A stretch of 27,801 nucleotides of DNA from a virus: IMG/VR virus record IMGVR_UViG_3300005295_000595, positions 1 through 27,801 of that record; one strand, written 5' to 3'. The notes below the pieces were generated by a model, which made no database searches, had not been told where the DNA came from, and saw only the letters and a program-made list of their open reading frames with translations. Below, piece after piece: positions 1,394 through 11,410 of this stretch. A program made the translations under genes and the position numbers. Positions within the stretch are counted from its first letter, which is position 1. Each line of letters starts with the position of its first letter.

Positions 1394-3043
1394 GTGTCCT
1401 TTGAAATGATCCCTGTTCCCGAGCGCGACCCGCTCAGCATGGTGTGGCTTGACACCAACGACCTCGGCAATGCCGAGCGGCTGGTGCGGCTTGCGCGCGG
1501 GCTGCTGCTGTGGGTCGAGGAGATCGGCTGGGTCGGCTATGACGGCAAGCGCTGGTCTGCCCGTGACGGGGCGCGGATGGCGGCGCGGCTCGCGCATGAG
1601 GTGGCCCGCCATGTCGATGCCGAGGCCAATGCGCTCGACGAGGTCTGCGAGGATGCCGCGAAGCTCAAGACCGCCTTTGGCTGGAACGTGCCGATCGAGG
1701 TTGCCGGCGAGCGGGTGACGGCCTTGCGCAAGCATGCGATCCGCAGCGGCAATTCGGCCGCGACCAAGGCGATGCTCGAGCAGGCGCGCACGCTGCTGCC
1801 GGCCTATCGCGAGGAATTCGATACCGATCCCTATGCGATCAACCTGCAGAACGGGACGCTGCGGTTCGTGAAGGGCGTGGGTGGGTGGACGGTCGCGCTC
1901 GGCGTGCATGAGCCCGAGGACCGCTTCATGCAGATCGCCAATTTCAGCTATGATCCCAAGGCGACGGCGCCGGACTGGATCGAGCGCATGGTGCTGGTGC
2001 AGCCCGAGGACGATCAGCGCGGCAAGCTGCAGCAGATTTACGGCTATTGCCTGACCGGGCTGACCAGCGAGCAGAAGTTCTTCCTTTATCAGGGGCGCGG
2101 CGGCGACGGCAAATCGCTGACCAATGCGGTGATCGCCGAATGCCTGGGCGATTATCACCGCCACGCCCAGGTCGAGAGCTTTCTGGAAGGGGGCAGCCGA
2201 TCGGGCAGCGACCATTCGAGCGACATGGCGCGCCTGCAGGGCGATATCCGCATGGTCACCTGCGACGAGCCGAAGCGCAACAGCGCGTTCAACGGCACCC
2301 GGATCAAGCAGATCACCGGCGGCAAGGTGACGTGCCGGCCGCTGGGCAAGGTCGAGATCGAATACAGCCCGCACTGGAAGCTGATCATGGAGTGCAACCC
2401 GCTGCCGGCGGTGCCGACCGACGATGACGGTTTCTGGCGGCGCTGCGACCTCAATCCGTGGCCGTACCAGTTCGACAAGGGCGGCGAGAAGAGCGAGCCG
2501 TTCGAGATCCTGGTCGAGCGCTTCGTGGCGCAGGGGTCCGGCATCCTCAACTGGATGATCGACGGCGCGCTGACCTGGCTCGCCACGCGGCGGCTGCCGC
2601 CATCGCGCGCATCCGCCGAGGCGGTCGACAATTATCGCCAGTCCTCGAGCCCGATCGGCGAGTGGCTGGCCGAATGCTGCGAGGTGACCGATCGCGGCGC
2701 GATGGAGCCGGCGCGGCCGCTCTACAATCATTTCAAGGCGTGGTGCGAGAAGACCGGCGCTGGCGGCGACAAGCCGCCGACCGAGACGATGTTCGGCCGC
2801 GCGCTGCGCGATCGGCAGATCCTGGTCGTGAAGGACGCCAGGACCGGCAACCGCATGCGCAAGGGCATCCGGCTGAAGCTCGACGGGCCGTTCCGCGATC
2901 TCGGCTCTTCAACGGGCGATGCGGGGGGTGGCGGGTCAAGCGTCGCCGGCGCAGCCGGCCCGGCAAGTTCTGGGGGCGCGCAAGATCCGGGTGGCGATTT
3001 GTGGAAGGCCGAGCGGGATGATGATGATTTTGTCGCGTTCTGA
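1394..3043 (+). CDS. phage SF3 helicase, D5/P4-family primase C-terminal type
   Basis: This 549-residue protein is a D5-like superfamily 3 helicase of the kind annotated as 'phage/plasmid primase, P4 family'. It probably unwinds the phage origin. A D5_N-like region spans roughly residues 50-220. The ATPase core has Walker A GRGGDGKS at 234-241, Walker B ending in TCDE (acid pair 291-292), a sensor-1 Asn in MECNPLP near 335, and an arginine-finger candidate in FWRRC near 349-350. No primase active site (Toprim or Prim-Pol) is apparent in the N-terminal part, so priming may come from another protein. The C-terminal tail is Gly/Ser/Ala-rich and probably disordered. GTG at 1394 is the first start after an in-frame TAA at 1376-1378; ATG at 1406 is the alternative. 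Neither has a strong Shine-Dalgarno sequence. Confidence 0.88.
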   Translation: MSFEMIPVPERDPLSMVWLDTNDLGNAERLVRLARGLLLWVEEIGWVGYDGKRWSARDGARMAARLAHEVARHVDAEANALDEVCEDAAKLKTAFGWNVPIEVAGERVTALRKHAIRSGNSAATKAMLEQARTLLPAYREEFDTDPYAINLQNGTLRFVKGVGGWTVALGVHEPEDRFMQIANFSYDPKATAPDWIERMVLVQPEDDQRGKLQQIYGYCLTGLTSEQKFFLYQGRGGDGKSLTNAVIAECLGDYHRHAQVESFLEGGSRSGSDHSSDMARLQGDIRMVTCDEPKRNSAFNGTRIKQITGGKVTCRPLGKVEIEYSPHWKLIMECNPLPAVPTDDDGFWRRCDLNPWPYQFDKGGEKSEPFEILVERFVAQGSGILNWMIDGALTWLATRRLPPSRASAEAVDNYRQSSSPIGEWLAECCEVTDRGAMEPARPLYNHFKAWCEKTGAGGDKPPTETMFGRALRDRQILVVKDARTGNRMRKGIRLKLDGPFRDLGSSTGDAGGGGSSVAGAAGPASSGGAQDPGGDLWKAERDDDDFVAF

Positions 3044-3060
3044 GGGACCACAACATCTGG

Positions 3061-3361
3061 TTACGGAGGGTTACGGAGGGTTGCCCCGAACCCTCCGTAG
3101 CTTTGAAGAAAGGGCGCGCATTTCCGGCGTGATCGGGGTCGGCGCGGCGGTGATGATGATGGGCCTCGGGATCGCGGCGGCCGTTGCCGGAGGGTTTTAC
3201 GGTGGGTCTGGCGGCGGACCATCCGGAACGCAAGTCGCTGGATTTGTTCGTTTTACGGAGGGTTACGGATAGTTCGGCGGGTTTGATGGCAGGTCGAGCA
3301 TGAGGCGGGCGCAGCGGGCGCACGCGCGGAGCGACTGTGTATACCCTCCTACCCTCCGTAA
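3061..3361. repeat. TTACGGAGGG repeat cluster, candidate phage replication origin (iterons)
   Basis: The gap between the helicase gene and the next gene holds multiple copies of the decamer TTACGGAGGG. Forward copies lie at 3061-3070, 3071-3080 and 3253-3262, the last followed by a half copy TTACGG at 3263-3268. Inverted copies lie at 3091-3099 (nine of ten bases) and 3352-3361 (exact), with a half copy CCCTCCT at 3344-3350. A degenerate copy spans about 3186-3207. Iterated sites beside an SF3 helicase gene are the usual form of a phage or plasmid origin, so an origin or a regulatory site bound by the helicase is inferred. No credible gene lies here. Confidence 0.6.
3072..3099. repeat. perfect 11-bp inverted repeat (hairpin) within the repeat cluster
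   Basis: TACGGAGGGTT at 3072-3082 is followed, after the six-base loop GCCCCG, by its exact reverse complement AACCCTCCGTA at 3089-3099. The arms are made from the same decamer repeat, so one forward and one inverted copy can fold together. It lies 28 bases after the helicase stop and has no T-run behind it. It could be a transcription barrier for the helicase message, a protein-binding dyad, or a structure extruded at the origin. Confidence 0.6.
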
Positions 3362-3379
3362 GGATTTGAGGATCTAGAT

Positions 3380-3976
3380 ATGGTTGAAGAGAAGAGAGAG
3401 GTTACGAAGTTACCGACCCGGTCGGCGCGGGGCGTGCCAAGGCAGCGGCGCGGGCGGCCCAGCCGGGTGAGCGAGGCGGCGGCGATCGCGATGTCACCGG
3501 CGCCGCGCCTCGTCGAGCGGCCTCCGCTGTGGACCTTCGCGATCGTCGAGCAATGGATGATCGATGCGGTGCGCAGCTGGTGGCGGCATGATCGCAGCGG
3601 CGGCGGCTCGCCCTTCGCCTCCGACGGGCCATGGAACCTGATCGTCGCCGAATGGGGCGACTGGGGCGCCCATGAGCGGGAAGAGGAAGACGAGGCCGAG
3701 GTGCGGCCGCCGCTCTCCCGCGATCAGATCGCCTGCATGCAGGAAGCGACGGAGTGGATCCTGCTGGTGCCCGAGGCCGACCGGCGCGTGCTGTGCATGG
3801 CGCTGCGTCACTATGCGATGGGGAAGGAGGAGCCCGACTGGAAGCGGATGCTGCGGCCGCTGGGCGTGAAGCGCGGGGCGCATGGGCTCAAGCGGCGGTA
3901 CACGCAGGCGGTCACGGCGATCTGCACGTGGCTGAATGGCGAGGTGCTGGTGCAGGGTGGCGGAAATCCGGCCTAG
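3380..3976 (+). CDS. DUF6362-like protein with C-terminal helix-turn-helix, putative regulator
   Basis: This 198-residue protein has a basic Arg/Pro-rich N-terminus (residues 1-48). A middle domain follows with several Trp (WTFAIVEQWMIDAVRSWW, then EWGDW). The C-terminal helical region (about 115-190) ends in LGVKRGAHGLKRRYTQAVTAI, resembling the last helices of sigma region 4 or DUF6362 phage proteins. The layout recalls small phage proteins that control late transcription or interact with terminase, and its place between replication and packaging genes fits a late regulator. That role is inferred from position and a weak helix-turn-helix. ATG at 3380 has GAGGA at 3368-3372, a good spacing. 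Part of the repeat cluster lies immediately upstream and could act as its operator. Confidence 0.55.
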   Translation: MVEEKREVTKLPTRSARGVPRQRRGRPSRVSEAAAIAMSPAPRLVERPPLWTFAIVEQWMIDAVRSWWRHDRSGGGSPFASDGPWNLIVAEWGDWGAHEREEEDEAEVRPPLSRDQIACMQEATEWILLVPEADRRVLCMALRHYAMGKEEPDWKRMLRPLGVKRGAHGLKRRYTQAVTAICTWLNGEVLVQGGGNPA

Positions 3977-4179
3977 AATATGTCAATATGAAATAGTTTC
4001 GCAGGCTCGAATTTTAAGGGTGCCATTCTAGGGCATCTGGTGCGTATCTATCGCTACTCTTGGGCGAGGCGTTCGCGCCGGGCCTCGGGGTGGCCTTAGG
4101 GCATCCTCTCCCTTCGACTTCGCAGCGCCCGTCACGGTCCCCGGATCGCGGCGGGCGCTGCGCTTTCACGGACATATCC
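3977..4179. other. intergenic region between the regulator and HNH genes
   Basis: No gene is supported here. The left part (3977-4020) is AT-rich, with ATATG repeated three bases apart, and could hold a promoter, although no clear -35/-10 pair is visible. TAGGGCATC occurs twice, at 4029-4037 and 4097-4105. The right part contains the strong inverted repeat described separately. A TTG-started extension of the HNH frame back to 4060 is possible but runs through the inverted repeat and adds low-complexity sequence, so I treat the stretch as non-coding. Confidence 0.4.
4121..4162. repeat. 11-bp perfect inverted repeat upstream of the HNH gene
   Basis: CGCAGCGCCCG at 4121-4131 pairs exactly with CGGGCGCTGCG at 4152-4162 across a 20-base spacer. 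The second arm is followed by CTTTCACGG rather than a T-run, so it is not a textbook intrinsic terminator. It ends 17 bases before the HNH start codon and could sequester the start region, stop upstream transcription, or bind a protein. GC-rich palindromes can arise easily in this genome, which lowers confidence in function. Confidence 0.45.
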
Positions 4180-8867: not shown

Positions 8868-9104
8868 ATGACCGAGAAGACATTGGAGCAGCAGCTGGCA
8901 GAGGCCAAGGCTGCGCAGGACAAGGCCGAAAAGGAGCTTGAAGCGGAGAAAGCAGCTCACGCCAAGACGTCAGCTGCGCTCGACAAGGCGAGCCCGAAGG
9001 AAGCTGAAGACGAGGATCTGACCCCGACCCCGACGCAGGCCGAGATCGATGCCGCCAAGCTCGGGCTGGAGCCTGAAAAAACCGGCAAGTACAAGACGCG
9101 CTGA
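8868..9104 (+). CDS. small coiled-coil protein between capsid and portal genes
   Basis: I do not recognise a named family for this 78-residue acidic protein. Residues 1-45 form a strongly charged Ala/Glu/Lys heptad-like helix (EQQLAEAKAAQDKAEKELEA), followed by an acidic segment, a Thr-Pro stretch and a basic end (KTGKYKTR). Small coiled-coil proteins at this point in head operons can be head-fiber, scaffold-like or head-decoration proteins, so a structural or assembly role is possible by position only. It has a good ribosome site (AAGGAG) before ATG 8868. It is separated from the capsid gene by two hairpins and ends ten bases before the portal gene, so it is likely translated. Confidence 0.6.
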   Translation: MTEKTLEQQLAEAKAAQDKAEKELEAEKAAHAKTSAALDKASPKEAEDEDLTPTPTQAEIDAAKLGLEPEKTGKYKTR

Positions 9105-9114
9105 GCGGCGATCA

Positions 9115-10473
9115 ATGGGCCTTCTCGCCAAAACCCTGTCGTTCCTTGGCATCAAGGGGAGCGAGGGTGCGTACCGGGAAGGCCCCTATTATCTGCCGGT
9201 GACGGGTGGATGGCTTTCGGCCGACGCCGGGAAATACGCCAATTGGTGGCAGCTTGGGCACAACCCGGAGGCGACGTCACGCACGGCGATCGTGGAGGCG
9301 TGCGTCTCGGCCTATGCGCAGACGGTAGCGATGTGCCCCGGCAATCATTGGCGCTGGACGGCAGAGAAGGGCCGCGAGCGGGTGATCAATTCAGCGATCG
9401 TCCGCATCCTGCGCAATCCCAACGATTATCAGTCGATTTCCGATTTCCTGCTCAACGCGGCCCGGCACCTGATGTTCGAAGGGAACGCCTATGCACTGGT
9501 GCTGCGCAACAATCGCTACGAGCCGGAGCAGTTGCATCTGATGGACCCGCGCCTTTCCGGCGCGCAGCTCACTGAGACCGGCGAGATCTTCTATCACCTC
9601 AAGGGGAACCCGATCGTTGACCGGCGGATCGGATCGAATCTGATCGTGCCGGCGCGTGACGTGTTGCACCTCCGGCTGCACACGCCGCGCCACCCGCTGA
9701 TCGGGGAGACGCCGCTAGTGGCCGCTGCGCTACAGATGGCGGCAGGGAACTCCGCACTGCAGCATGAAATCAATTTCCGGCTCAACCAGGCCCGTCCGTC
9801 CTTCCTGCTTTCTACTGACCAGGTGCTCGATAAGGAGAAGGTCGAGGTGCTGCGCGAGCTCTGGAACGAGCAGGCGAAGGGTATGAATGCTGGCGGCACG
9901 CCGATCTTGACCGCCGGCCTCAAGGCCCAACAGATCGGCATCAGCGCGAAGGATTCGCAGCTGGCCGATCTCCTCAAGCTCAGCGATCAGGCGATCGCGC
10001 ATGTGTTCCGCATCCCGTTGCAGGTGCTTGGCACCGGAGACACTCCCTACGCCTCGACCGAGGCGCTGATGTCCTCCTGGCGCGCGGGCGGCCTCGGCTT
10101 CCTGCTCAATCATATCGAGGAGGCGATCGGCCTGCTGTTCAAGCTCTCGGGACAGCCCAGCGAATATATCGAATTCGATACCAGCGCGCTGCTCCGCTCG
10201 GCGTTCAAGGAGCGGGTCGAGGGATGGTCGGTTGGCGTCAAGGCTGGGATTTTCGACCGCAATACCGCACGGCAGGATTTCGAGCTGGCGCCTGTCGAAT
10301 ATGGCGACGAGCCCTGGGTGCAGCAGCAGGATATCCCGCTGAGCGTCGCCGGCGAGTTGGCGAAAAATCCGCCGAAGCCTGCACCGGCAGCCGAGCCACC
10401 CGCTCCAGCCAATGATCCCGAGGCCAAGGCCGCGATCTATGAGAAACATCTGAGGGAGGCGCTTCGTGGATGA
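9115..10473 (+). CDS. phage portal protein, HK97 family
   Basis: This 452-residue protein is an HK97-family portal, the dodecameric ring at the packaging vertex through which DNA enters and leaves. Family features include an early NP.DYQS segment (101-106), FEGNAYALVLRN (121-132) before a short beta region, a long helical stem in the middle and RIPLQVLGTGDTPYAS near residues 299-314. The C-terminal 35 residues are Pro/Ala-rich and flexible. ATG 9115 is preferred; the frame continues upstream to 9049, but that part overlaps the preceding gene and looks like shadow sequence. The portal follows the capsid gene here, the reverse of HK97. Its end overlaps the next gene's GTG start by eight bases. 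Confidence 0.92.
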   Translation: MGLLAKTLSFLGIKGSEGAYREGPYYLPVTGGWLSADAGKYANWWQLGHNPEATSRTAIVEACVSAYAQTVAMCPGNHWRWTAEKGRERVINSAIVRILRNPNDYQSISDFLLNAARHLMFEGNAYALVLRNNRYEPEQLHLMDPRLSGAQLTETGEIFYHLKGNPIVDRRIGSNLIVPARDVLHLRLHTPRHPLIGETPLVAAALQMAAGNSALQHEINFRLNQARPSFLLSTDQVLDKEKVEVLRELWNEQAKGMNAGGTPILTAGLKAQQIGISAKDSQLADLLKLSDQAIAHVFRIPLQVLGTGDTPYASTEALMSSWRAGGLGFLLNHIEEAIGLLFKLSGQPSEYIEFDTSALLRSAFKERVEGWSVGVKAGIFDRNTARQDFELAPVEYGDEPWVQQQDIPLSVAGELAKNPPKPAPAAEPPAPANDPEAKAAIYEKHLREALRG

Positions 10474-11410
10474 TGCGAAAGCCATCGCCGCCGCGACCGC
10501 GATCGTCGTCCGCGAGACGGTGGCGGCTGCGCTTGAACCGATCCTGGCGCGCCTTGCCGTACTCGAAGCGCGACAACTTGAGCGCGGCGAGAAGGGAGAA
10601 CGTGGCGACCCCGGCGAAAAGGGCGAGCGCGGAGAGGCCGGGGAGCGTGGCGAGAGGGGAGAGGATGGAGCGAGCGTCGATCTCGCTTGGCTGACCGATA
10701 CGGTCCAAAGCATGGTTTCCGAAGCGGTCGAGGCTGCTGTCAAGGCACTGCCGGCACCCGAGCGCGGGGAACGCGGTGAGACCGGACAAACCGGAGAGCA
10801 AGGCGAACGGGGTGCCGATGGCGTGGGCCTTGCCGACGCTGTGATCGATCGGGCCGGCGAGTTGGTACTGACCATGACCGATGGAGGCATGCGCCGCCTC
10901 GGCGTGGTGGTCGGCCGCGACGGTGAGAATGGGCGCGACGGGGAAGACGGCCGCGATGGGCGTGATGTCGAGGATATCGTCGTCACTCAAGATGGCGCGA
11001 CCGTGGAGTTCGGATTTACCGTAGGCGAGGCGCGGTCGGTGTTCGAAATCGAGCTGCCCGTGGGTCCGCCTGGCGAGACACCCTATGTCGGCGAGGCGCG
11101 CGGCCTGTTTGATCCTGAGGCGACTTATCGCGCGCTCGATGTCGTCAGCTTCAACGGCTGCGAGTGGCGCGCCCGATGCGACAATCCCGGCACTCTTCCC
11201 GGTGAAGGCTGGATGCTCTCGGCGGGCAGGGGCAAGCGAGGCGAGAAGGGTGAGCGCGGGGATCGCGGTGGTGTCGGCCTGCCTGGGCCGTCGCTCGTCA
11301 CCGGCTATGTCAAGGATATGGCGCTGACCCTCGTTCGTGAGGATGGACAGGAAACGCAGGTCGATCTGTACGATTTCGCCGAGACAATCCGGCGGGTGGC
11401 CGCCCCATGA
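10466..11410 (+). CDS. collagen-like virion protein
   Basis: This 314-residue protein contains several blocks of Gly-X-Y triplets, which form a collagen triple helix. The blocks lie at about residues 41-69, 101-121, 150-167 and 256-275, with a short GPPGE near 200. Charged triplets such as GEKGERGDPG are typical of phage collagens, which stabilise trimers through salt bridges. An amphipathic helix precedes the first block. A small beta domain with FDPEATYRALDVV and a Cys pair (about 213-254) resembles carbohydrate-binding modules of fibers. It is probably a trimeric fiber or stalk on the virion, perhaps at the head or neck given its position after the portal. GTG 10466 has GGGAGG six bases upstream. 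The stop overlaps the next ATG. Confidence 0.8.
   Translation: MDDAKAIAAATAIVVRETVAAALEPILARLAVLEARQLERGEKGERGDPGEKGERGEAGERGERGEDGASVDLAWLTDTVQSMVSEAVEAAVKALPAPERGERGETGQTGEQGERGADGVGLADAVIDRAGELVLTMTDGGMRRLGVVVGRDGENGRDGEDGRDGRDVEDIVVTQDGATVEFGFTVGEARSVFEIELPVGPPGETPYVGEARGLFDPEATYRALDVVSFNGCEWRARCDNPGTLPGEGWMLSAGRGKRGEKGERGDRGGVGLPGPSLVTGYVKDMALTLVREDGQETQVDLYDFAETIRRVAAP

Follow-up and report, generated by a model that had tools for sequence, protein, structure and literature searches.

A converging iteron cluster directly behind an SF3 helicase gene is a probable replication origin in an uncharacterised phage

The record of Lactobacillus phage A2 (AJ251789) has a rep_origin annotated at 32208-32717, directly 3' of the primase gene, which contains forward copies of TTACGGGAGGAT, an AT-rich tract and inverted copies. 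In SaPI elements the C-terminal domain of the Rep protein reads an iteron origin immediately downstream of its own gene, and SCCmec Cch2 uses its C-terminal domain to bind direct repeats that lie downstream of its own gene (PMC7581432). The record of phage P4 annotates a crr whose type-1 iterons stand 46-345 bp 3' of the alpha gene, and it holds a separate rep_origin at 9086-9809. The crenarchaeal plasmid pRN1 has its origin, a stem-loop, 3' of the gene that encodes its primase-SF3-winged-helix initiator (PMC4234260).

We analysed a viral sequence of 27,801 nucleotides (IMG/VR record IMGVR_UViG_3300005295_000595, hereafter the window) in which an initial annotation had described a decamer cluster at 3061-3361 and proposed it as a replication origin or as operators of the next gene. 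Exact forward copies of TTACGGAGGG were found at 3061-3070, 3071-3080 and 3253-3262, an exact inverted copy at 3352-3361 and an inverted copy with one mismatch at 3091-3100. In the register TACGGAGGGT, which is shifted by one base, all five copies are exact (three forward and two inverted in 300 bp), whereas no 10-mer exceeded three copies per 301 bp when the whole window was dinucleotide-shuffled 100 times, indicating that the cluster is real. The half copies described alongside the full decamers were also recovered, at 3185-3196, 3197-3208 and 3263-3274 and, inverted, at 3217-3228. The cluster lies, as had been stated, right behind the helicase gene, spanning 18 to 318 bp past the stop at 3043 with an iteron period of 10 bp, and the following ORF begins at 3380. 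When we scanned the whole 27.8-kb window no decamer with zero or one mismatch was observed outside 3061-3361, and thus the objection that the decamer is simply common fails for this phage fragment. Counts at up to two mismatches are uninformative because they show no excess across the window (23 matches versus 18 expected).

The perfect 11-bp hairpin noted earlier was confirmed, with arms at 3072-3082 and 3089-3099, a loop of 6 nt and a folding energy of -16.1 kcal/mol as single-stranded DNA (z -5.2). The offsets of the left module (0, 10, 28) are identical in another helicase locus, L007. GC skew gave no useful signal on the 27.8-kb fragment, which may be incomplete: the cumulative curve climbs throughout and has no minimum at the cluster.

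Table 1. Features of the helicase gene and the repeat cluster, in window coordinates.
Feature	Position	Strand	Basis or detail
SF3 helicase gene, P4/D5 type, stand-alone, putative initiator	1394..3043	+	profile matches, model
C-terminal winged-helix domain, putatively origin-binding	2600..2902	+	domain model
Left module: two tandem iterons TTACGGAGGGTT	3061..3082	+	10-bp period
Inverted iteron, completes left (+,+,-) module; hairpin arm with 3072-3082	3089..3100	-	
Middle degenerate iterons TGCCGGAGGGTT and TTACGGTGGGTC	3185..3208	+	2/12 mismatches each
Degenerate inverted half copy TTCCGGATGGTC	3217..3228	-	3/12 mismatches
Right forward cluster: TTACGGAGGGTT and TTACGGATAGTT	3253..3274	+	10-bp period
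Spacer between converging clusters, 66 bp, GC-rich, candidate melting core	3275..3340	.	
Right inverted cluster: partial copy ACCCTCC beside exact copy	3341..3361	-	
Next gene, distant DUF6362 / phrog_6836; iteron present also without related gene	3380..3976	+	

The helicase ORF matched the profiles PF08706 (D5_N, 7e-21) and PF19263 (DUF5906, 1e-6) and scored 162 bits against TIGR01613 (primase_Cterm, cut-off 108.7), and no primase domain was found in the ORF. Its AlphaFold2 model (pLDDT 89.4) had as best structural match the primase-helicase SaPI5 Rep (7om0), with Z 30.6 over 403 residues, and the alignment extended to model residue 504. Modelled alone (pLDDT 85.3), the C-terminal domain matched the phage P4 origin-binding domain (1ka8) with Z 8.7 over 79 residues. 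This suggests that the C-terminal winged helix of the predicted structure is of the origin-binding type. The closest solved folds for this domain were RFX-type winged helices, whose DNA-binding domains (Z 10.1 and 9.5) scored slightly above that of P4. RFX contacts DNA through its wing, and therefore the wing may matter for the iteron specificity of the helicase domain. Directly ahead of the helicase gene a GapR-like DNA-binding protein (PF10073, 2.7e-12) is encoded at 910-1329, and a DUF1643 protein (PF07799, 2e-32) lies at 123-671, at the fragment start. A predicted protein with collagen-like GER/GEK triplet repeats is encoded at 10466-11410, just behind the portal gene.

The window resembles A2 in that the A2 origin stands immediately behind a homologous P4-type primase/helicase gene, carries a similar iteron (TTACGGGAGGAT) and has forward and inverted clusters that face each other over a spacer. 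A2 differs in its low GC content, its AT-rich spacer, the sequence of its iteron and the additional N-terminal sequence of its helicase. The SaPI Rep origins (SaPI5, SaPIbov1) and SCCmec Cch2 are of the same kind, in which a self-loading Rep helicase uses its C-terminal domain to read iterons placed directly downstream of its gene; these are, however, satellites or cassettes of staphylococci with other iterons, and SaPI5 Rep, for all its similarity in fold, has a primase domain. P4 shares the winged-helix origin-binding domain and has type-1 iterons of the GGTGAACAGT family 3' of alpha, in crr, but its separate ori is distant, its primase is fused in alpha and the surroundings are AT-rich. In pRN1 the origin likewise lies 3' of the gene for an SF3-winged-helix initiator, but iterons are absent and a 100-nt stem-loop is required. 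We rejected an origin of the pRN1 type, as the window has only the 11-bp hairpin (3072-3099) and no stem-loop of about 100 nt.

The traits of the P4 crr, SaPI and A2 type were found in the window: a D5_N/primase_Cterm helicase gene directly upstream, iterons about one helical turn apart within about 400 bp 3' of it, converging forward and inverted clusters over a spacer of about 65 bp (66 here) and, on the predicted model, a C-terminal winged helix of the origin-binding type. An AT-rich unwinding element, which is common but not defining in origins of this kind, is absent from the window spacer.

We then looked at where the same iteron occurs in other phages. The exact 20-mer TTACGGAGGGTTACGGAGGG had three matches among 2.9 million viral contigs, and in 3/3 of these other contigs it stood right behind a gene for an SF3 helicase of the D5_N/P4 type. 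One of the three, contig L005, is a low-GC, Firmicutes-like phage whose helicase is nearest to the primases of Listeria, Enterococcus and Lactobacillus phages and has 29% identity to the window's helicase. In this phage the helicase stop is immediately followed by two forward copies, and an AT-rich stretch separates these from two inverted copies. Contig L009, found with an 18-base pattern, was rejected as a further example, having a single copy outside a helicase context. Rhizobium phage RR1-A, which encodes a relative of the helicase, was also set aside, as its primase gene lacks a cluster of this sort directly 3' and another annotated gene is immediately next. A protein scan of viral contigs for close relatives gave no confirmed match, and no DNA similarity of 2600-3990 to phage records was found. 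The helicases and origins most like those of the window were observed in Sphingomonas and Croceicoccus genomes (loci L090, L091, L092 and L094). A Sphingomonadales host is therefore suggested, and the window is probably from a tailed phage of that order.

To extend the comparison we surveyed 160 loci, taken from viral contigs and prokaryote genomes with the helicase protein as the sole criterion; dereplication left 129 loci, the window included. Repeated 7- and 8-mers (for example ACCCTCC, ATCCTCCC and ACGGACAG) were present at least 3 times in the 600 bp downstream at many loci and in 0/452 background windows. We applied one repeat score to every region. A score of at least 4.5 was reached by 71/127 downstream windows but only 1/116 upstream windows, and about 45% of the surveyed loci had no cluster at this threshold. 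The regions further downstream gave 7/120 and 3/113, and the inside of the gene 4/128. In a held-out set drawn from two further scans, clusters were found downstream at 39/84 loci as compared to 1/86 upstream and 0/74 in the background. Thus such clusters follow members of this helicase family across phyla and in many unrelated phages.

The iteron sequence varies by clade (ACGGCGGGT, ACGGACAGT, TGGGAGGAT, GCGAGGGTT and others). The layout, however, is kept across clades. Near the helicase stop there is a direct pair with an inverted copy; beyond some additional copies, a forward and then an inverted cluster face each other over a spacer. This spacer measures 63-68 bp in most of the low-GC held-out loci. 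Because one layout recurs behind related helicase genes in many phages that are not related to each other, the origin reading of the initial annotation is well supported. Taken together with the positions of the A2 origin and the P4 crr and with the P4-type winged helix, sequence comparison strongly favours iterons of a replication origin, and we conclude that 3061-3361 is very probably the cis-acting replication origin of this phage, or its essential iteron part, bound by the helicase.

The spacer of the window is not AT-rich (AT 0.34 versus 0.36 for the window) and folds no better than shuffles (z +1.0). It does hold GCGCACGCGCG, an 11-nt alternating purine-pyrimidine run (p 0.015). We found that in GC-rich relatives the spacer often has such a tract, of up to 33 nt; long ones are present at L055, L033, L015, L115, L120 and other loci. 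A tract at p<0.05 was detected in 33/59 spacers against composition shuffles and in 31/59 against dinucleotide shuffles, these loci being related rather than independent (19 clades at 45% helicase identity, of which 7 have a median p<0.05). In the remaining gaps of these origins a tract was detected in 2/100 cases, and among held-out GC-rich loci the tract was found in 5/10 spacers versus 1/54 control gaps. Palindromes showed no overall enrichment in the spacers (10% at p<0.05). The tract is thus statistically real in the relatives and modest in the window, and it may have a role in melting or Z-DNA formation. We tentatively suggest that in GC-rich phages an alternating tract of CG/CA/TG steps, prone to form Z-DNA, replaces the AT-rich unwinding element between the converging clusters. 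Two helicase rings might then melt or flip a B-Z-type core at this tract.

The initial annotation had also raised the possibility that the repeats are operators of the next gene; the 3380-3976 protein or a different regulator would then act on them to control its transcription. The last copy does end 18 bases ahead of that ORF, whose product is weakly similar to DUF6362 and had no match in phage records. However, contigs L005 and L006 share the iteron of the window while their next proteins are unrelated to the window's, and relatives of the window's protein stand behind other iterons, for example ACGGACGGT in L015 and CGGGGAGGA in L027. Loci L007 and L016 have next proteins that are 83% identical, yet their iterons differ (ACGGAGGG versus ACGGACGG). 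Nor was a promoter-like site found in the 3061-3361 stretch. The iteron tracks the helicase rather than the gene behind it, so we disfavour operators and consider them highly improbable. Consistent with this, iteron similarity correlated with winged-helix identity once the ATPase domain was controlled for (partial r 0.23, permutation maximum 0.12). This covariation supports the helicase as the likely reader of the iterons. It does not single out the winged helix, since the ATPase domain covaries with the motif as well (partial r 0.28). The L007 and L016 origins form a natural specificity pair, and their helicases differ after the RQI motif (IVRTK versus IIGTK), at candidate specificity residues.

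Our main residual doubt is whether replication starts at this cluster or whether the cluster is the partner of another site. In P4 the cluster 3' of alpha is crr and not the annotated origin, and therefore the start could lie elsewhere; the helicase would bind here, with strand opening at a second genomic site. The P4 record, with its separate rep_origin, sets the precedent for such an accessory element, and an incomplete 27.8-kb fragment would leave room for the second site. However, a second decamer cluster was not found in the 27.8 kb, and the converging clusters with a spacer of about 65 bp match those of A2, whose annotated rep_origin sits at just this place. We therefore regard a crr-like role as unlikely. 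The hairpin, together with the HNH endonuclease and terminase genes a little downstream, could also be taken to indicate a packaging (cos/pac) site, a transcription terminator or a structured RNA element. Against this, the surveyed loci were chosen by the helicase alone, yet their clusters lie at the helicase 3' end, and the layout equals that of an annotated replication origin. An intrinsic terminator was rejected, as no GC-rich hairpin with a T run, nor any other terminator-like site, was found in the stretch, and an RNA family was rejected as the stretch had no Rfam match. We give these explanations very little weight.

For a helicase-bound origin we propose the following mechanism. The helicase would bind the iterons via its C-terminal winged helix (residues 403-503), and two hexamers would assemble, one on the forward cluster (3253-3274) and one on the inverted cluster (3341-3361), facing each other over the 66-bp spacer. 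ATP hydrolysis would melt the spacer and the rings would travel outward both ways, while a different protein would provide the primers. Extra sites for helicase loading or for regulation may be formed by the left module (3061-3100) and by the degenerate copies in the middle.

Our data locate a probable replication start in an uncharacterised phage, a new and well-supported case of an origin type already known. The module of an initiator and downstream iterons, known from a few elements (P4, SaPIs and A2), is widespread and combines a single architecture with many different iterons. The collection of modules is a natural data set on how a winged-helix domain reads DNA, and the layout may guide origin prediction in phages from metagenomes. 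With the alternating core of the GC-rich members, the melting of GC-rich origins becomes directly testable.
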